NCBI RefSeq assembly: GCF_015841355.1 | Contig: NZ_CP064908.1 | Coordinates: forward strand, 744,001-808,000 | Length of the DNA stretch: 64,000 nucleotides | From: Synechococcus sp. CBW1107 | Lineage (GTDB): Bacteria; Cyanobacteriota; Cyanobacteriia; PCC-6307; Cyanobiaceae | Reading direction: 5' to 3' | Shown: piece by piece, positions 20,280 through 30,801 of the stretch | Layout: each line of letters starts with the position of its first letter | How positions within the stretch are numbered: the stretch's first letter is position 1 | The notes under the pieces: generated by a model | The model's input: only the letters and a program-made list of their open reading frames with translations | Told to the model about the DNA's origin: nothing | Databases searched by the model: none | Position numbers and translations under genes: made by a program

Positions 20280-20981
20280 ATGACCACCACGCTCCCCGCC
20301 CCGATCTCCGACCACGCCAGCAGCGCCGATGTGGCCGCCCGCAAGGGTTTCGGCCCGCGGGTGCGGCGCCTGCACGCCCGCATCGGCGCCGCCCACCACC
20401 AGGCCGAGGGCATGGCCTTCTCCCGCGCCCTGCTCGACGGCCAGGCCAGTCCGCTGCAGCTGGCGGCCCTGATCCGCGCCCTGGGTCCGGGCTACGCCCT
20501 GATCGAGCAGCGGGGCCCGGAGCTGGCCGCCGCCCTGGGCGCCGCCGATCTCCCCTGGGCCCAGCTGGCCCGGGGTGCCGCCCTGGCCGCCGACGCGGCC
20601 GCCCTGGAGGTGGCCCCGCCCACACCGCCCTCCGCCGCCGCGGCCCTGTGGCTGGAGCACCTGCGCAGCCTGGCCCGGCAGGCGCCCCATCGCTTCCTGG
20701 CCCATGTGTACGTGCGCTACGGCGGCGACCTCTCCGGCGGCCAGCAGCTGGCGGTGCAGGCCAACGCGATCCTGGCCGCCCACGGCCTGCCGGGAGTGAG
20801 CTTCTGGAGCTTCGATCGGCCGATTCCCGAGCTCAAGGCCGCCCTGCACGCCGGGTTCGAGCAGCTCGAGCTCAGCGCGGCGGAAGAGGCCGAGCTGCTC
20901 GAGGAGGCCGTGATCGCCTTTCACGACACCCAGCGCCTGCTGGCCGAACTGGGTGAGCTGGGCAGCCTGGCCGAAGCCTGA
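20280..20981 (+). CDS. ho: Heme oxygenase (biliverdin-forming)
   Basis: 233 residues. The proximal histidine region RLHARIGAAHHQAEGMAF, and the distal-helix motif YVRYGGDLSGGQQL are diagnostic. It opens heme to biliverdin IX-alpha, CO and iron, feeding phycobilin synthesis. Most cyanobacteria have HO1; a second enzyme, HO2, sits in a low-oxygen operon with hemN. Direct linkage to hemN here (71 bp) suggests the HO2-type role, although no aerobic/anaerobic cyclase gene (acsF/chlA type) is present. Confidence 0.88.
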   Translation: MTTTLPAPISDHASSADVAARKGFGPRVRRLHARIGAAHHQAEGMAFSRALLDGQASPLQLAALIRALGPGYALIEQRGPELAAALGAADLPWAQLARGAALAADAAALEVAPPTPPSAAAALWLEHLRSLARQAPHRFLAHVYVRYGGDLSGGQQLAVQANAILAAHGLPGVSFWSFDRPIPELKAALHAGFEQLELSAAEEAELLEEAVIAFHDTQRLLAELGELGSLAEA

Positions 20982-21051
20982 CACCCCAGAAATCCACAGC
21001 CCATCCCCCTGCGTCCAAGCCGTCGACCCGGCCTCCCACCCGATCGCCTCC

Positions 21052-22431
21052 ATGCCCACCACCGCACCCGTTCGCCTCGATCCGCTGCAGCTGCTGCTCA
21101 AGCACGACAAGCCGGTCCCCCGCTACACCAGCTACCCCACCGCCGCGAGCTTCCACACCGGAGTGGGGGCCAGCGAGCTGGCGGCCGAGCTGGCGCGCCC
21201 CAGCGATGAGGATCTCTCCCTCTACGTGCACATCCCCTTCTGCCGCCATGCCTGCTGGTACTGCGGCTGCAACCGCATCACCACCCAGGCCGGATCCAAG
21301 GTGGTGGGGCCCTACCTGCGGGCCCTGGCCCGGGAGCTGGAGCTGATCCAGCAGGCCTCCACTCAGCGCCGGAGGCTCGGACAGCTGCACTGGGGCGGCG
21401 GCACCCCCAACTACCTGAGCGTCGACGAGCAGGCGGATCTGTGGGCGCTGATCGACCACCACTTCGATCTGGCCCCCGACCTGGAGGCCTCGATCGAGGT
21501 GAACCCGGAGTTCCTCACCCGCGAAGAGGTGCTGGGCCTGCGCCGGCTGGGCTTCAACCGCATCAGCTTCGGCATCCAGGATGCCGATCCCGAGGTGCAG
21601 GCGGCAGTGAACCGGATCGTGCCGGTGGATCAGCTGCGGCGGGCGATGGCCTGGATGCGGGAGGCGGGATTCGAGAGCGTGAACGTGGATCTGATCTGCG
21701 GGCTTCCCCTGCAGACCCCCGGACGCTTCGCCACCACGATCGCCCTGGTGGAGGAGCTGCGTCCGGATCGGGTGTCGCTGTTCAGCTTCGCCTACCTCCC
21801 CCGTCAGCTGCCCTTGCAGCGCCGCATCGCCGCCGACGATCTGCCCAGCCAACGGGAGCGGCTGCAGATGCTTCAGGCCGCCTACGACGCCTTCACCCGC
21901 TGCAAGTACGACGCCATCGGCATGGATCACTTCGCCCTGGCCGGCGACAGCCTGGCGGTGGCGGCGCGGGAGGGCCGGCTGCACCGCAATTTTCAGGGCT
22001 ACACCACCGGCGGCGAGCTGGATCTGATGGCCATCGGCGTCACAGCGATCAGCCAGTACCCCACCCTGTTCAGCCAGAACCTGCGGGATCTCAGGGCCTA
22101 CTACGCCAGCCTCGAGGCCGGCGTGCTGCCGGTGGAGCGGGGGCTGGTGGTGAACGACCCGGAGGTACTGCTGCGGCGCCGGATCATCCAGCAGCTGATG
22201 GCCAACTTCCGGATCGACTTCGACGACCTCGAAGGCGAGGCCGCCCTGGATGGACCCCGATGCTTCGCGGGGGAATGGCGCGAGCTGGAGGCTCTGGCGG
22301 CCGACGGCCTGCTCCGCCTGGAGCGCAACGGATTCAGCGTGACGATGGAGGGGCGCTGGCTGATCCGCCTGATCGCGGCGGTGTTCGACCCCCAGCAACG
22401 GCAGTGCCCCAGCGGCTCCCGGCTGATCTGA
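21052..22431 (+). CDS. hemN: Oxygen-independent coproporphyrinogen III oxidase
   Basis: 459 residues from MPTTAPVRLD. Radical SAM enzyme: KHDKPVPRYTSYPTA, then the iron-sulfur motif FCRHACWYCGC (CxxxCxxC), GGGTPNYLS, IEVNPEF, and a HemN C-terminal domain (GFNRISFGIQD, VNVDLICGLPLQT, YDAIGMDHFAL). It decarboxylates coproporphyrinogen III without oxygen. In the same orientation as heme oxygenase, 70 bp downstream. Full-length and intact. Confidence 0.93.
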   Translation: MPTTAPVRLDPLQLLLKHDKPVPRYTSYPTAASFHTGVGASELAAELARPSDEDLSLYVHIPFCRHACWYCGCNRITTQAGSKVVGPYLRALARELELIQQASTQRRRLGQLHWGGGTPNYLSVDEQADLWALIDHHFDLAPDLEASIEVNPEFLTREEVLGLRRLGFNRISFGIQDADPEVQAAVNRIVPVDQLRRAMAWMREAGFESVNVDLICGLPLQTPGRFATTIALVEELRPDRVSLFSFAYLPRQLPLQRRIAADDLPSQRERLQMLQAAYDAFTRCKYDAIGMDHFALAGDSLAVAAREGRLHRNFQGYTTGGELDLMAIGVTAISQYPTLFSQNLRDLRAYYASLEAGVLPVERGLVVNDPEVLLRRRIIQQLMANFRIDFDDLEGEAALDGPRCFAGEWRELEALAADGLLRLERNGFSVTMEGRWLIRLIAAVFDPQQRQCPSGSRLI

Positions 22432-24066: not shown

Positions 24067-25827
24067 TCAGCGGCCGGCCCCGAAGCCGGTCTGCAGGCTG
24101 GCGTTCTGCCAGAGCGCCAGTGGTGCAGGCTGGCGCGACCAGAACAGATCCCGGCAGGCGCTGCGCCTGATCTTTCCACTGGACGTGAGGGGAATCGTGC
24201 CTGGCCGCACCGCCAGGATGGCTCCGGCGGAGAGGCCATGGCCTTGCATGATCGCCATCTGGATCGAGCCGATGAAGGCGTCCAGATCCGGCCGGCGGCC
24301 CAGCGCCACCTCCTGCATCACCACCAGGTGCTCCTGACGATCCGATTCCACGCTGAAGGCCGCGCAGTGGCCAGGCCTGATATCGGGATGACAGGTTTCG
24401 ATACTACGCTCAATGTCCTGAGGGTAGAAATTACGACCGGCAATGATCAGCAGATCTTTCAATCTGCCGGTAATGAAAACCTGGCCATCATGCATGAATC
24501 CCAGATCACCCGTGCGCAGGTATGGCCCCTGATTCGTGTCAGCGAGATAGGCATCAAAGGCCTGCTGAGAGTTCCTCTGGTTCCGCCAGTAGCCCTGCGC
24601 CACACTGGGGCCGGAAACCCATACTTCCCCGACACGATCAGGCTGACACTGCAGAAGAGTGTCCGGGTCAACGATGAGGACGTGATGGTTGCGAACGACT
24701 CTGCCGCAGCCGACCAGCGTGGTGCCTGGCTCCTCGCCCCTCACGGGCACGACGCGATGCTCACGAAGCTGCCTGGTATCAAGATGGAGCAGAGTAGGCT
24801 CCGTCTGTTCGATCGTTCCCGAGACCCAGAGTGTGTTCTCGGCCAGGCCATAACAGGGCACGAACGCACTGGACCGGAACCCTGAGACGGCGAAGGCCTC
24901 GGCAAACTCCCTGAGGGTGTCGGCATAGACAGGCTCGGCTCCCACCAGGGCAGACTCCCAGCAGGAGAGGTCGAGGTGGAGCCGGTCCTCGGGGGGGATG
25001 GATCGGATGCAGCGTTGGTAGGCAAAGTTGGGCCCGCCACTGAAGGTTGCTCTGGTCCGGCTGATCGCCTCGAGCCAGCGCAGCGGACGCTCCAGGAACG
25101 AGAGCGGATCCATGAACGTGCAAGGTGTTCCTGAATAGAGTGCATGCAGAAGAAAACCGATCAGGCCCCAGTCATGGAAGGCCGGTAACCAGCACACCAG
25201 CCTGTGGCTGTTGCCGGAAACGCGGGCAGAGGCAATCAGACTGATATTGGAGATCAGGTTCTCATGCGACAGGACGACACCTTTGGGCTCACCTGTCGAC
25301 CCGGAGGTGTACTGAATGAAGGCAATCCTGGTGTTGTTGGTCACGGGAGACCAGCCGGAGCCTGCCACCTCAAGGCTTTCGATCGTCAGCCAGTGAGGTT
25401 GATCCACCAGGCCGTCCAGAAGTTCTCTCCGGCGGTTCAACGTGGCCTGAGTCGTGAGCAGATGCCGCGCCCCACTGTCCGTCAGCACACGGCTGAGCCT
25501 GGGAAGGCTGCGCCTGTGGTGAGGGGTCACGACAGGCACGGCGATCACTCCGGCATAGAAACAGGCCAGGAGGGCGTGCAGAAAGCTCGTTCCAGCCGGG
25601 AACATCAGGACGATCCGTTCGCCTGGAGGCAGAAGCGCCTTCAGGCCTTCACCACTGGAGACGACGCGGGAGTGAAGCTGGGCGTAGGTGATCGTGTCCG
25701 CTGCCGCCTCTCCGTGAGAGGGGAGAAAGTCGAACGCCATGGCATCCGGCCGTGACTCAGCCCAGTGCTGCAGGCAGGTCACCAGGGTCGTCGGGGTGGC
25801 CTGGCCATGGCTCGAGATCTGGTTCAT
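24067..25827 (-). CDS. Fatty acyl-AMP ligase (FAAL) A
   Basis: 586 residues. AMP-forming ligase: A3 motif YTSGSTGEPKGV near residue 175, A5 YGLAEN, A7 YLRTGDLGF, A8 and A10 SSGKIRRS. FAAL traits: WLPAFHDWGLIGF, LDPLSFLERPLRWL and the extra segment between them, as in FadD32/JamA-like enzymes that load fatty acids onto carrier proteins without CoA. Start overlaps the upstream FAAL B stop by 4 bp (ATGA). Last gene of a six-gene operon with an ACP, two diiron enzymes and a methyltransferase. Two different FAALs with one ACP suggest two fatty acids or two loading steps. Confidence 0.88.
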   Translation of the reverse strand: MNQISSHGQATPTTLVTCLQHWAESRPDAMAFDFLPSHGEAAADTITYAQLHSRVVSSGEGLKALLPPGERIVLMFPAGTSFLHALLACFYAGVIAVPVVTPHHRRSLPRLSRVLTDSGARHLLTTQATLNRRRELLDGLVDQPHWLTIESLEVAGSGWSPVTNNTRIAFIQYTSGSTGEPKGVVLSHENLISNISLIASARVSGNSHRLVCWLPAFHDWGLIGFLLHALYSGTPCTFMDPLSFLERPLRWLEAISRTRATFSGGPNFAYQRCIRSIPPEDRLHLDLSCWESALVGAEPVYADTLREFAEAFAVSGFRSSAFVPCYGLAENTLWVSGTIEQTEPTLLHLDTRQLREHRVVPVRGEEPGTTLVGCGRVVRNHHVLIVDPDTLLQCQPDRVGEVWVSGPSVAQGYWRNQRNSQQAFDAYLADTNQGPYLRTGDLGFMHDGQVFITGRLKDLLIIAGRNFYPQDIERSIETCHPDIRPGHCAAFSVESDRQEHLVVMQEVALGRRPDLDAFIGSIQMAIMQGHGLSAGAILAVRPGTIPLTSSGKIRRSACRDLFWSRQPAPLALWQNASLQTGFGAGR

Positions 25828-27464
25828 CGCTTGCCGATCTGACGTTGACGCGATGCGAGATCACCCCGCTGGAACATGGCCTTGGCTTCGGCCCGTCTTG
25901 GCTTGCCGCTGGTCGTGATCGGCAGAGCCTGGCGATCAACCAGATGAATCTCGTCGACCTCATAGCCGCAGGCAATCAGATCGGACCTGATCGCAAGCCG
26001 TACCTTGTCTCTGGACTGAGCGGAAGACTCCTTGAACTCGACGAGCAGAATCAGGCGTTCGCTGGAGAGATCGGAGTCGTAGATGCCCAATGCGATGGCC
26101 CGTCGGACTCCAGCCTGCAGCAGGGCAATCTGTTCAATGGTGTCTGGATAAAGATTCCTGCCATGTTTGATGATGATATCTTTTTCTCTGCCGATGATGT
26201 ACAGCTGCCCTGAGCTGATATAGGCACGATCCCCCGTATCCAGCCACTCCCCAGCGTGGGCCACAAAGCCCTCCTGGTTGTAAAGACCACTCATCAGGGA
26301 TGGACTCCTGATCCATACATTCCCGACGGTGCGATCCGGCAGGATCTGTCCGGCCGCATCGCGGATCGTGATCTCCTGGCCCTGGACGGCCGGGCCTGTC
26401 GAAACGACGGCAAAGCGGTTGCCCGCTGCAGGGTCTGATCGTCTGGCGATCCCAGCGGACATCAGAACATCCGGATCGATCCAGTCGATCAGCGGCTTCT
26501 TCTGATCGTGGGGAATTGTGACGGCCAGGGTTGATTCAGCCAGACCATAGACGGGTTTCAGTGCTTCGGGCCTGGCTGAATGCTGCTGGACCAGGACCTC
26601 ATTGTAGGCCTCGATCAGCTGATGGGACACCAGTTCAGCTCCCACCACGAATCGAACCAGTGAACTCAGGTCCAGGGACAGATCCCTGCTGCGCTTCAGC
26701 AATCGGATGACCGCCAGAAGGGCCGAGGGAGGGGCCACCGAGAGGGTGGACTGGGCTTCGGAAAGGATCCGCATCCAGCGCAGGGGATTTCGCCTGAACT
26801 GAGCCGAATCCATCAGATGGCAGGAACCACCGACATAGAGCGGAAGAAGCAGTCCACCGAACAGACCCATGTCGTGATACATAGGAAGCCACGAACAACT
26901 TCTTGCCAGGCTCTCAGGCGAGAGTCTATCGGCCATGCTCTGAAGATTACTGGTGATGGCCGACCATTCCAAGGCTATTCCTTTGGCGCTGCCTGTTGAA
27001 CCTGAGCTGAATTGGATGTAGGCATGCCCATCGAAAACAGCCGGCTCAGAGGCCTGGTCATCGACGCCGCTGAAGACACTCGAAGGAAGAACCAACAGGT
27101 CTGGAATCTCAACGCTCAGGTCAGTGACGACAGCACGAGTATTCAGGATCGCCAGGCGCTGACTGCACTGAGATTGAAAATCCTTCTGCAGTGGAGCCAT
27201 GATCGTCGGTGTGACACCTCCCCAGAACGCCCCCAGGAGTGCTGTGATCAACTCCCTGCCCGTGGGCAGGCTGAGGATGATCCGATCTCCAGTCCTGATG
27301 CCACTGTTCTGCAGACGAGCCCAGCCGAGTTGAGCACACCCGAGCAGATCGGCATAGCTGAGGATCGTGTAGGGCTCCTTGGGCTCTCCGATGATCTGGA
27401 GGGCTATGTCGGAGGGTTGGTACTCAGCTCGATACCTGATGATGGAGTTGAGATCACCGCTCAT
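25824..27464 (-). CDS. Fatty acyl-AMP ligase (FAAL) B
   Basis: 546 residues from MSGDLNSIIR (27464), 12 bp after the methyltransferase stop. AMP-binding motifs FSSGSTGSAKGIALEW, WLPMYHDMGLFGGLLLPL, YGLAESTLAVTI, WLDTGDRAYI, GRNLYPDTIEQ and TSGKPRRAEA mark it as a FAAL. It is only moderately similar to FAAL A next door, so it is not a recent duplicate. It would activate a fatty acid as acyl-AMP and pass it to the ACP at the head of the operon. Base composition is visibly less GC-rich than the flanks. Confidence 0.86.
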   Translation of the reverse strand: MSGDLNSIIRYRAEYQPSDIALQIIGEPKEPYTILSYADLLGCAQLGWARLQNSGIRTGDRIILSLPTGRELITALLGAFWGGVTPTIMAPLQKDFQSQCSQRLAILNTRAVVTDLSVEIPDLLVLPSSVFSGVDDQASEPAVFDGHAYIQFSSGSTGSAKGIALEWSAITSNLQSMADRLSPESLARSCSWLPMYHDMGLFGGLLLPLYVGGSCHLMDSAQFRRNPLRWMRILSEAQSTLSVAPPSALLAVIRLLKRSRDLSLDLSSLVRFVVGAELVSHQLIEAYNEVLVQQHSARPEALKPVYGLAESTLAVTIPHDQKKPLIDWIDPDVLMSAGIARRSDPAAGNRFAVVSTGPAVQGQEITIRDAAGQILPDRTVGNVWIRSPSLMSGLYNQEGFVAHAGEWLDTGDRAYISSGQLYIIGREKDIIIKHGRNLYPDTIEQIALLQAGVRRAIALGIYDSDLSSERLILLVEFKESSAQSRDKVRLAIRSDLIACGYEVDEIHLVDRQALPITTSGKPRRAEAKAMFQRGDLASRQRQIGKR

Positions 27465-27475
27465 GCTCACAACGT

Positions 27476-28318
27476 TCAGCGTTTCGATGCTGTGATCTGA
27501 TAGCAGACGGTGCCACCCTCTCGGTACGTGTTGAGTGCGATCATCAGGTAGCGGCGCAGCATCAGATAGGCATCCCGGGAAAGCTCCATCATCGGCTCGG
27601 CGTGCCGATCGATGTTCTGCAACCACAGCGACAGGGTCCTGACGTAGTCCATGCTGATGTCCTGCAGAGCCAATGGAATCAACTCGGCAGATTCCAGGAG
27701 GCAAAGCATCTCTCCTCCGGTCACCATGTCCATGGTGTTTCCAAACGAACGATCGACTTCCGTAGCACCTCGATCACTCAGATAACGCCCACGCATGGAC
27801 GCCCGATCATAATGACTTTCCTGGATGAAGATCTTCCCGCCCGGCCTCAGCAGATCATGGCAGCTCCTGAATATGGCTTCCTTTTCAGGCATATGGATAA
27901 TACTTTCCAGAAACATGATGCTGTCAAATGATGCTGCTGGATAGTCAAGGTCCAGAACATTCTTGACCTCAATCTGAACTCGGCCATCAACCCCATGTTG
28001 GGCAGCACGGTTGAGACCGTAAGCTCGCTGGGCAGCACTGAGGTTCACCCCTGTGATATGGCAGCCATAGTGTTCCGCGAAGTAGACAGCCGGCCCACTC
28101 CAACCGCAGCCCACATCAAGAATTCTCTGGCCCTCCTTGATGCCTAGTGAGGCAGCTATGCCTTGCATCTTATTGATCTGAGCCTGATCCAGAGTCTCAT
28201 CGTCGGCACAAAATACCCCTGAGGAGTAGTTGAGATTCGAGTCCAGAAACAGCTCAAACAGTCTCGGATCGTTGTTGTAGTGAACCCCGCTGTCACGGAC
28301 CGGTGTTGACTCAAGCAT
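27476..28318 (-). CDS. SAM methyltransferase, cyclopropane-fatty-acid-synthase-like
   Basis: 280 residues from MLESTPVRDS, overlapping the diiron B stop by 8 bp. N-terminal HYNNDPRLFELFLDSNLNYS, then GVFCADDETLDQAQ is the CFA/mycolic cyclopropane synthase signature; motif I is ILDVGCGWSGPAVYFA, followed by ITGVNLSAAQ and SIMFLESIIHM. Such enzymes methylate or cyclopropanate unsaturated acyl chains, which fits two desaturase-like enzymes in the same operon. The bicarbonate-binding Cys of classical CFA synthase is not obvious, so a plain methyl transfer to carbon, oxygen or nitrogen is also possible. Confidence 0.8.
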   Translation of the reverse strand: MLESTPVRDSGVHYNNDPRLFELFLDSNLNYSSGVFCADDETLDQAQINKMQGIAASLGIKEGQRILDVGCGWSGPAVYFAEHYGCHITGVNLSAAQRAYGLNRAAQHGVDGRVQIEVKNVLDLDYPAASFDSIMFLESIIHMPEKEAIFRSCHDLLRPGGKIFIQESHYDRASMRGRYLSDRGATEVDRSFGNTMDMVTGGEMLCLLESAELIPLALQDISMDYVRTLSLWLQNIDRHAEPMMELSRDAYLMLRRYLMIALNTYREGGTVCYQITASKR

Positions 28319-29144
28319 TGACTGGTTCCACTGAAACTTGCTTCTGACCAGCACGAATGAATCTAGCCAGCTGAGGCAAGGATTCCAGCTTCGTCCCCGT
28401 CATGTCGGAGAGGACAGAGAGGATCCCGTCGCTGAGCCTCTGTTCATCTTCTGGAGAGATCGTCTCAATAATCATTCTTTCGAATTTCTCATGATTGGGG
28501 ATCAGATCCTTAACAGAATCCGTATCAGGGCCGTTCAGGCGCAGCGTTGTTGGATGTTTATCACCTGTAGGATTGTAGATCATCCATTTTGACATCTGCA
28601 GGAAGTCGGTCAATACAGCAGGCTCTCGTTTAACAGCTTCAAGCATGAACAGCTTGTAGCAGTTTGCGTGCCGATACTCATCCTGACTGATGAGATGATA
28701 AACCTGCTTGAGGATCGGCTCCCTGAAGACTCCACTCCAGCGTTCGTACCACATCCCCAGCCTCAGTTCACCGCAGAAGTGCATGGCCAGGGTGCTCGTC
28801 CATGGCGCCGGCGCCAGCTCGACATCAAGCTGCTTGATGTCGTCTTCGGACGGCTCGGAGCCGAACTGTTTGAGGTACTCACGCAGCACCAGATAGTGCT
28901 TCATCTCTTCGTAATACCAAACACTCATGAACTGACAGAAGTCAGGCATGTGCTTGAAATCGCGGAGAAACATCCGCGTGGCGTAAAGAGATGACAGCTC
29001 ATAGCAGCAGTTGACCCTGACATGCTCGATCTCTGCCTCATTGATGAGAGAGTGATCGATTGCGTCAAAGGCGATACTCTTCAATGTCCACCTGACGGGC
29101 TCAAGCTGCTTGAAGATCTTGTCGTAGAGGGCATCGTTCGTCAT
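28311..29144 (-). CDS. Ferritin-like diiron oxygenase/desaturase B
   Basis: 277 residues from MTNDALYDKI. The ATG at 29144 is chosen because GGGGGA stands 9 bases before it. Four-helix diiron pattern: E in a NEAEIEHVRVN helix, YYEEMKHYLVL (ExxH), and SQDEYRHANCYKLF (ExxH). This is the type-2 (soluble acyl-ACP) desaturase / ferritin-like oxygenase arrangement. Substrate is likely acyl-ACP. The paralogue upstream shares the fold but little sequence, so the two may make different changes such as desaturation and hydroxylation. 14 bp separate them. Confidence 0.75.
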   Translation of the reverse strand: MTNDALYDKIFKQLEPVRWTLKSIAFDAIDHSLINEAEIEHVRVNCCYELSSLYATRMFLRDFKHMPDFCQFMSVWYYEEMKHYLVLREYLKQFGSEPSEDDIKQLDVELAPAPWTSTLAMHFCGELRLGMWYERWSGVFREPILKQVYHLISQDEYRHANCYKLFMLEAVKREPAVLTDFLQMSKWMIYNPTGDKHPTTLRLNGPDTDSVKDLIPNHEKFERMIIETISPEDEQRLSDGILSVLSDMTGTKLESLPQLARFIRAGQKQVSVEPVNA

Positions 29145-29158
29145 GGGCAGCATTCCCC

Positions 29159-29968
29159 CTAAGCGATCACCGCGCTGGGAACCCGGAACTGTTTGAAGTA
29201 ATGAGTGAGGTCGATCGCCATCTTCGATCTCCACTTCGGCTCCCAGAAGCTGATGTAGAGGTCGGTGGCATATCCTTTTTCTTCAAACATCTCAATGTGC
29301 TCCTGAGGCATTGAGAAATTGTTCCAGATGGCTTTGAACTGAGGCCAGATGCAAGCCGTTTCTTCTGGGCTGGCCGTTTTGACGTACTCCTTGAGAGCGA
29401 TCTGAAAGAAGCTGCAGTGACGCATCTCGTCGTTGGCCATGCGCCGTAGGATATCGGCAAGCCGCGGATCTTCGACAGCTTCGCTTACACTGTTGTAAGC
29501 AACATAAGCCGAGTATTCTTGTAAGACATTGTACACCATCTGCTGCACGTGCCGACTGATGTGAGGGCTGACCTGCATCTCATCCAGATACTGCTCGCTG
29601 TTGCCTTCATAGCTGCCCTTCTCCAGCCCGATGTATTCATCAGTGGTGATGTCCGCATCCAGCGCCTTGAGGCACTGCCTCAGCACCAGATAGTGCAGGT
29701 ACTCCTCGCCGCCCCACAGGGTGGCCCATACGGACATCCTGTAGTTGTCTCCGTAGGAACGGTAGTAAGCCTTCACATAGTGCGCAATCCCGTATTCATT
29801 CATGCACGTACTGCGCATGAATGAAATCACCTTGTCAGGAACCTTGCTTTTATCCAGAGCCAGTCCTTTCTTGATCTCTTTGAGATCAGGCCAGAGGCTT
29901 CTGCCGATCGTAAAGAAGTGCTCCAGAGTCTCGTTGTCTTCCAGCACCATCTGGTCGTTATTGTTCAT
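29159..29968 (-). CDS. Ferritin-like diiron oxygenase/desaturase A
   Basis: 269 residues. Diiron ligands visible as STCMNEYGIAHYV (first helix Glu), GGEEYLHYLVL (ExxH) and NDEMRHCSFF (ExxH) about 85 residues later, as in soluble acyl-ACP desaturases. The start ATG overlaps the ACP stop by 4 bp, which points to coupled translation with its likely substrate carrier. The GC content is lower than in the surrounding genome, a sign of acquisition. It could be a desaturase, an N-oxygenase or a C-C cleaving relative; sequence alone does not tell. Confidence 0.75.
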   Translation of the reverse strand: MNNNDQMVLEDNETLEHFFTIGRSLWPDLKEIKKGLALDKSKVPDKVISFMRSTCMNEYGIAHYVKAYYRSYGDNYRMSVWATLWGGEEYLHYLVLRQCLKALDADITTDEYIGLEKGSYEGNSEQYLDEMQVSPHISRHVQQMVYNVLQEYSAYVAYNSVSEAVEDPRLADILRRMANDEMRHCSFFQIALKEYVKTASPEETACIWPQFKAIWNNFSMPQEHIEMFEEKGYATDLYISFWEPKWRSKMAIDLTHYFKQFRVPSAVIA

Positions 29969-30246
29969 TTTTGCTCCGTACTGAGTTCCATGATGAGCTT
30001 GACAGCATCGCCGAGGGTCTGAAGGTCTGCAGGGTTGACGGTCGAAGGGAAGCGCACCGCAAAGTTCTCCTCGACCACCACAATGAAATCAACAAAACCC
30101 AGGGAGTCGATACCCAGGTCTTCTTTGAGACGGGAGTTCTCGGTGATTTCCTCTGTTCCTTCCAGTTGCAGAAGATCCTCAATGATGAGCTTCATTTTAT
30201 CAAGAACTTGCTCGTCAAGCACGACTGACGAATTGGCCACATTCAT
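29965..30246 (-). CDS. Acyl carrier protein
   Basis: 93 residues from MNVANSSVVL. The phosphopantetheine site is LGIDSLGFVDFI, where the usual DSL serine is present, with a helix II and III pattern of an ACP. Longer N-terminus than housekeeping AcpP (about 80 aa). First gene of the operon; its stop overlaps the next start (ATGA). It would be loaded by the two FAALs and present the chain to the diiron enzymes and methyltransferase. A phosphopantetheinyl transferase is not in the window. Confidence 0.88.
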   Translation of the reverse strand: MNVANSSVVLDEQVLDKMKLIIEDLLQLEGTEEITENSRLKEDLGIDSLGFVDFIVVVEENFAVRFPSTVNPADLQTLGDAVKLIMELSTEQK

Positions 30247-30801
30247 ATTCGGATCAAAACTCACCACGCAGATTATCACTATCTGCGCCAATTTCTTCTT
30301 CTGCCAAGCAGCGCAAAGAATCTTATTGTCATTCGCTCATTTCTGTTGCGAAGCGCTCACCATCCGGCGATCTTCAACGTGATCGTTATATGATGGGCAA
30401 CTGGACAGCCGGTTAAGTGGCTCAATATCTGGTAGTCCTGACTACACCTGCAGGCGTCGTATCCGCATGGCCCTGCTGATCCGTGTGTTCATCGTTCATG
30501 CTCACGAACGGTGCGCTCACGGATTCGTTCGGGAACAGACGCGGACCTGGCCCCATGCGTCATGGCCACCTCTCAGACGCGCCGTTCGTTCCCCTCTGCG
30601 CTCCGCAGGCGCCCCAGCAGGCAGCGACAGATCCCGATTCGATCAGTGATCGCGTGGTGTTGACGGACCTCGGAAAACGCCGCTGCGTTCGCCAGGGTTC
30701 ATCAAACGTCTCAGGCTCGCGCTCCAGTCGACGTTGTTCAGCCGCGAGCGCTGCACCGGACCTGTTCATGGCCTCAGGGCCGCCCGGGATCCACAGCGAG
30801 C
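30247..30801. other. Intergenic, promoter region of FAAL operon and hli operon
   Basis: About 555 bp between divergent operons. The first 170 bp are AT-richer (for example tcttattgtcattcgctcat) and probably contain the ACP promoter. The remainder has open frames only by GC bias. No RNA gene recognised. Confidence 0.45.

Follow-up and report, generated by a model that had tools for sequence, protein, structure and literature searches.

A compact acyl carrier protein, diiron, methyltransferase and fatty acyl-AMP ligase operon in one picocyanobacterium and a few planctomycetes

The genome of Synechococcus sp. CBW1107 (3.2 Mb, a single contig) carries a run of six closely spaced genes that raises two questions: where the run came from, and what it might do to a fatty acid. 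It lies on the minus strand at 24067-30246 of the window (the whole stretch analysed, 64,000 nucleotides, positions 744,001 to 808,000 of NZ_CP064908.1), where an earlier note based on the letters alone had placed it. In the order ACP-DI1-DI2-MT-FAAL2-FAAL1, the genes encode an acyl carrier protein (PF00550), two diiron proteins assigned to PF03405 (FA_desaturase_2), a methyltransferase of PF02353 (CMAS) and two AMP-binding enzymes (PF00501) that NCBIfam places with the fatty acyl-AMP ligases (FAALs), bearing out the earlier naming of both ligases (Table 1).

Table 1. Features of the operon, with coordinates in the window
Feature	Coordinates	Strand	Evidence
ACP, acyl carrier protein, 93 aa, GIDSLG phosphopantetheine site	29965..30246	-	PF00550 E=7.8e-8
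DI1, diiron protein, acyl-ACP desaturase type	29159..29968	-	PF03405 E=6.5e-8
DI2, second diiron protein, AfcD family	28311..29144	-	37% to Burkholderia AfcD-position gene; AF2 model
MT, CMAS-family SAM methyltransferase without canonical bicarbonate ligands	27476..28318	-	PF02353 E=1e-36
FAAL2, core fatty acyl-AMP ligase	25824..27464	-	PRK09192 fatty acyl-AMP ligase E=4.6e-88
FAAL1, cyanobacterial natural-product type FAAL, accessory to core	24067..25827	-	PRK05850 E=4e-129
Palindrome GCGCAGATAGTGATAATCTGCGT upstream of ACP	30266..30288	.	Pattern scan only

Layout and composition of the operon

The tight packing and the low GC content that the earlier note described both hold. Neighbouring genes overlap by 4 bp (ACP/DI1 and FAAL2/FAAL1) or 8 bp (DI2/MT), or are separated by 14 bp (DI1/DI2) and 11 bp (MT/FAAL2, taking ATG 27464 as the FAAL2 start; GTG 27470 is the alternative). 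The GC fraction rises along the operon, from 0.49 in ACP and 0.49-0.53 from ACP to MT to 0.58 in FAAL2 and 0.62 in FAAL1, with all six genes below the 0.65-0.76 of the flanking genes. Genes with housekeeping or photosynthesis-related roles adjoin it, among them those for high-light-inducible-type proteins, a PEMT-like protein, heme oxygenase and HemN. Neither the operon nor its near flanks contain a PKS, an NRPS or a condensing partner. In the flanks, heme oxygenase and HemN are encoded by genes in head-to-tail overlap (20280-22431), an arrangement that we take to resemble the low-oxygen heme and chlorophyll operons of cyanobacteria. Just 5′ of the ACP start, the palindrome at 30266-30288 is a possible operator or 5′ UTR hairpin, and palindromes of its kind occur at chance level in the pattern scan.

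In addition, the operon is rare among its host's relatives. A search with DI1 over 300 genomes of the host family, eight congeners among them, returned only the genome that carries the operon (1/300; 0/8 congeners). The rarity and the low GC together argue that this cyanobacterium acquired the operon horizontally, as had been proposed. The window contains no tRNA, no convincing repeats flank the operon, and a clean empty site was sought in the congeners but not shown, the region being rearranged there.

The conserved core and its distribution

Relatives outside the host family were reached unevenly. A scan of genome contigs with DI1 alone found none, because exact peptide patterns are too strict, and DI1 was likewise not found in plasmids, in 193 genomes of the phylum of locus L019 or in 249 genomes of the phylum of locus L020. 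Among 386 sampled cyanobacteria, the sole DI1 match besides the operon is a lone gene of 23% identity in a fragmented assembly (L007, 1429-2256), between dihydrolipoamide dehydrogenase-like and uracil-DNA glycosylase-like genes; it is perhaps contamination. It was a scan with the DI2 alignment that first reached a planctomycete locus (L012, 49% identity) where the genes again run ACP-DI1-DI2-MT-FAAL, and searches around it gave six further planctomycete loci (L099, L100, L101, L137, L138 and L139). The core operon is present in 4/392 sampled Planctomycetota and in 7/154 genomes of one order. Because the five-gene order recurs in seven planctomycete genomes, the arrangement is more than chance. 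In a tree, the DI2 proteins of the eight operons (one cyanobacterial, seven planctomycete) form one clade with support of 100/99, within which the cyanobacterial row branches first; since it sits on a long branch, the donor cannot be named.

These comparisons point to a conserved core, ACP-DI1-DI2-MT-FAAL, common to one cyanobacterium and a few planctomycetes, with FAAL1 outside it. Genome mining, as the earlier note had proposed, thus recovered the core but not its six-gene set: the two ligases are indeed FAALs, but FAAL1, last in the operon, occurs only in the cyanobacterial version. The absence of a PKS, NRPS, thioesterase or reductase had also been claimed. A condensing enzyme is lacking in the window version and in L139, whose MT is the closest to that of the window (54-55%), whereas a FabF-like ketosynthase directly follows the FAAL gene in five planctomycete loci (L012, L099, L100, L101 and L137); the remaining locus, L138, ends within FAAL. 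A GNAT-family gene adjoins four planctomycete operons (L100, L101, L137 and L139); its product could free the chain by transfer to an amine, but the window has no such gene. In three of these (L100, L101 and L137), a cyanophycinase-like S51 peptidase and two CphA-type ligases lie on one side of the operon, and the GNAT gene with an isoaspartyl dipeptidase-like amidohydrolase on the other. We rejected the cyanophycin genes as core members, the other loci being without them.

ACP is 38-41% identical to its planctomycete orthologues over 72-83 aa; loss of its serine had been named as grounds for discarding the pathway, and the serine is intact within a GIDSL motif, with one PPTase detected in the genome. 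For the ligases, FAAL models score best, an extra segment relative to FACL follows YGLAE and the catalytic Lys is present; their loading of ACP and not CoA is putative. FAAL2 is 35-40% identical to the FAALs of the planctomycete operons. FAAL1 instead matches, at 36-48% identity, FAALs in 64/244 cyanobacteria, none of them in other members of the host family within that sample. Because these relatives are cyanobacterial natural-product FAALs, many encoded in frames as long as those of a PKS or NRPS, FAAL1 looks like a local addition to the operon.

Active sites of the diiron proteins and the methyltransferase

DI1 and DI2 are remote paralogues (22% identity), and the earlier reading of both as desaturase-type diiron enzymes is supported by their families, ligands and profile or structural matches, with desaturase activity putative. 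The PF03405 score of DI1 is 32.2 bits and that of DI2 is 20.2, the latter below the cut-off of 22.7, which the L012 orthologue of DI2 exceeds (35.5). An E, ExxH, E, ExxH pattern (four Glu, two His) is kept in every copy of both proteins: E58, E89/H92, E151 and E181/H184 in DI1, invariant in eight copies, and E49, E80/H83, E126 and E156/H159 in DI2. Furthermore, two E..ExxH motifs with a W before EExxH are invariant in 8 DI1 rows and 26 DI2-family rows. Structure prediction of the pair, which had been suggested, succeeded for one member. The DI2 model (AF2, pLDDT 89) finds acyl-ACP desaturases as its top 16 PDB folds, plant enzymes and mycobacterial DesA2 included (E 2e-4, TM 0.5-0.65). The DI1 model is poor (pLDDT 68), with no PDB match below 0.001 and other ferritin-like proteins as its best, non-significant structural matches; a DI1 profile search in the PDB gives DesA2 as best (E=4e-5). 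DI1 is more distantly related than DI2 to the acyl-ACP desaturase/AfcD family. Three positions beyond the third Glu ligand, at the site that we take to correspond to Thr T199 of castor desaturase, DI1 has Ala154 (invariant) and DI2 has Leu129; DesA2 also lacks this Thr in the DI1 profile alignment. Given these replacements, DI1 and DI2 could oxygenate instead.

DI2 relatives occur in several other settings. AfcD/DI2-like genes lie divergent from clusters of flavin amine oxidase, DUF1365 and CFA-like methyltransferase genes in betaproteobacterial loci such as L021 and L071, perhaps furan or methyl fatty acid genes. On Methylibium plasmid RPME01 (L010, 7288-9840), genes for an iron-containing redox enzyme and a crotonase precede that for an AfcD-like 'ferritin', and in Dormibacterota and Chloroflexota (L013, L016 and L037) an AfcD-like gene lies just upstream of apparent aminotransferase and anthranilate synthase genes. 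A Burkholderia protein 37% identical to DI2 is encoded beside FAAL, membrane desaturase and LysR genes, a layout matching afcA, afcC, afcD and shvR, from which we read it as AfcD. AfcD is a putative acyl-ACP desaturase, dispensable for synthesis of the lipopeptide AFC-BC11, and the afc cluster resembles the operon in having a FAAL (AfcA), a carrier protein (AfcK) and AfcD itself (PMC12186527). Unlike the operon, the afc cluster has AfcQ, AfcP and KAS III-like enzymes. The full set (AfcQ, AfcP, AfcL, AfcS and AfcT) was not found in the six genes and their near neighbours, and the 36 kb of the afc region that were examined contained neither DI1 (including as AfcN) nor any close relative of MT. 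One could imagine from this kinship, from the natural-product affinity of FAAL1 and from the GNAT genes beside four planctomycete operons that the operon supplies the lipid tail of a larger secondary metabolite whose assembly enzymes lie elsewhere in the genome, much as FAAL-ACP pairs do for lipopeptides. However, no assembly-line or condensing partner lies in or near the operon, AfcD is dispensable for the lipopeptide and the window has no GNAT gene; we consider such a role improbable.

The methyltransferase MT is a full-length match to the CMAS model (PF02353, 127 bits, positions 6-273), and in a profile search its best solved relatives are mycolate methyltransferases, ahead of MitM and RebM. 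S33, E138, I141, Q166, S168 and Y225 are constant in the eight copies. Specifically, where E. coli Cfa has the bicarbonate ligands Cys139, Glu239 and His266, every copy has Ser, Ile and Gln, respectively; the fourth ligand, Tyr317, is kept, and Glu stands in place of Gly236, a change shared with Hma and MmaA1. E138, Q166 and S168 align with E146, Q176 and S178 of Hma, an enzyme that yields a methyl alcohol via a carbocation (PMC8708032). With three bicarbonate ligands lost and Glu and Gln as in Hma, the product seems more likely to be methyl-branched than cyclopropanated, and the cyclopropanation suggested in the earlier note is weakened. Membership in PF02353 would suit a classical pathway of desaturation followed by cyclopropanation on ACP, as would cotton GhCPS1, a member of a cyclopropane synthase family in which two of these substitutions, Ser and Gln, also occur (PMC3132707), which counsels caution in overreading those two. 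Nonetheless, the Glu239 that MT replaces by Ile is conserved in bacterial and plant synthases, and is kept also in the betaproteobacterial CFA-like enzymes beside amine oxidase and DUF1365 that share Ser, Glu and Gln with MT; with the Hma-like Glu at Gly236 also against it, a classical cyclopropane pathway seems very improbable.

It is also worth considering a methoxy fatty acid as the product, made through hydroxylation of the ACP-bound chain by one diiron protein and O-methylation of that hydroxyl by MT. The missing desaturase Thr is compatible with this, since ferritin-like folds also oxygenate, as is the MT loop LESIIHMPEK, nearly the same as LESIIHMPDR of MitM and close to LESLHHMPDR of RebM, which are N- and O-methyltransferases. 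The CMAS fit over nearly all of MT, the higher scores of the mycolate enzymes and a C-terminal Y225-T-L-W region of CMAS type argue the other way, and we regard a methoxy product as unlikely. We rank alkene C-methylation first among the MT reactions, O-methylation second and cyclopropanation third.

Candidate pathway and comparison with known systems

From the enzyme families and residues we infer a self-contained route of acyl-ACP modification, in reactions, step order and end product alike, and give it about an even chance. FAAL2 would activate a free fatty acid as acyl-AMP and load it onto the dedicated ACP, and FAAL1 perhaps does the same for another chain. The non-equivalent soluble enzymes DI1 and DI2 would then put one or two double bonds into the bound chain, and MT would methylate a double bond with SAM as the donor; because it lacks the usual bicarbonate base, a cyclopropane is a less likely outcome than a methyl-branched alkene or alcohol. 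In the planctomycetes with a ketosynthase, the chain may be extended afterwards. The end product may pass to a lipid through a host acyltransferase, or be released, by transfer or hydrolysis, by a host enzyme. The poor DI1 model, the replaced Thr (and the oxygenation that it could permit), the MT loop and the residues shared with GhCPS1 all count against this route.

Cylindrocyclophane-type starter cassettes combine a FAAL, an ACP and the dimetal carboxylate oxidase CylC, which acts on the acyl chain. By description, the operon is like them in pairing a FAAL and an ACP with a dimetal carboxylate enzyme, and unlike them in that it has no PKS, its diiron proteins are short and DI2 is predicted to fold as a desaturase. 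For MT, also by description, a likeness is UfaM of the furan fatty acid branch, a CFA-like SAM methyltransferase whose product in E. coli is 11-methyloctadec-12-enoate (PMC12089945); a CFA-like enzyme can therefore stop at a methyl alkene. UfaM acts on membrane fatty acids without a FAAL or ACP, whereas the operon has both.

The same set of activities is found in mycobacterial meromycolate modification (AcpM, DesA1/DesA2, CmaA/MmaA/Hma, KasA/B and FadD32; PMC12845086). Both systems have a FAAL, an ACP, two non-equivalent soluble desaturases and a CMAS-family SAM methyltransferase, with a ketosynthase in the five planctomycetes, although the FAAL would act first in the operon and acts last in the meromycolate system. 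The proteins are only distantly related, and there is no evidence of mycolic acids here. The meromycolate genes are, we presume, dispersed in mycobacteria, in contrast to the single operon here. We tentatively suggest, while thinking it rather doubtful, that the operon is a compact mobile counterpart of this machinery outside the Actinobacteria, in which a dedicated ACP, two desaturases and an Hma-like methyltransferase would make mid-chain methyl-branched, possibly hydroxylated acyl chains; we know of no report of such chains from cyanobacteria or planctomycetes.

What is new is the combination of genes, its order and its spread over two phyla, the enzyme families each being already known; consistent with the earlier view that no such pathway had been described, we found no paper describing the gene set in the open-licence literature. 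The operon probably acts on a fatty acid bound to a carrier protein of its own, first desaturating and then methylating it, and would be a short pathway to an unusual acyl chain, of a size that allows passage from one phylum to another. If this mechanism is true, it would offer a simple soluble system in which to study what decides between cyclopropane, alkene and alcohol in CMAS-family enzymes, and it would predict that some planctomycetes and one picocyanobacterium can be recognised by a new lipid or fatty acid.
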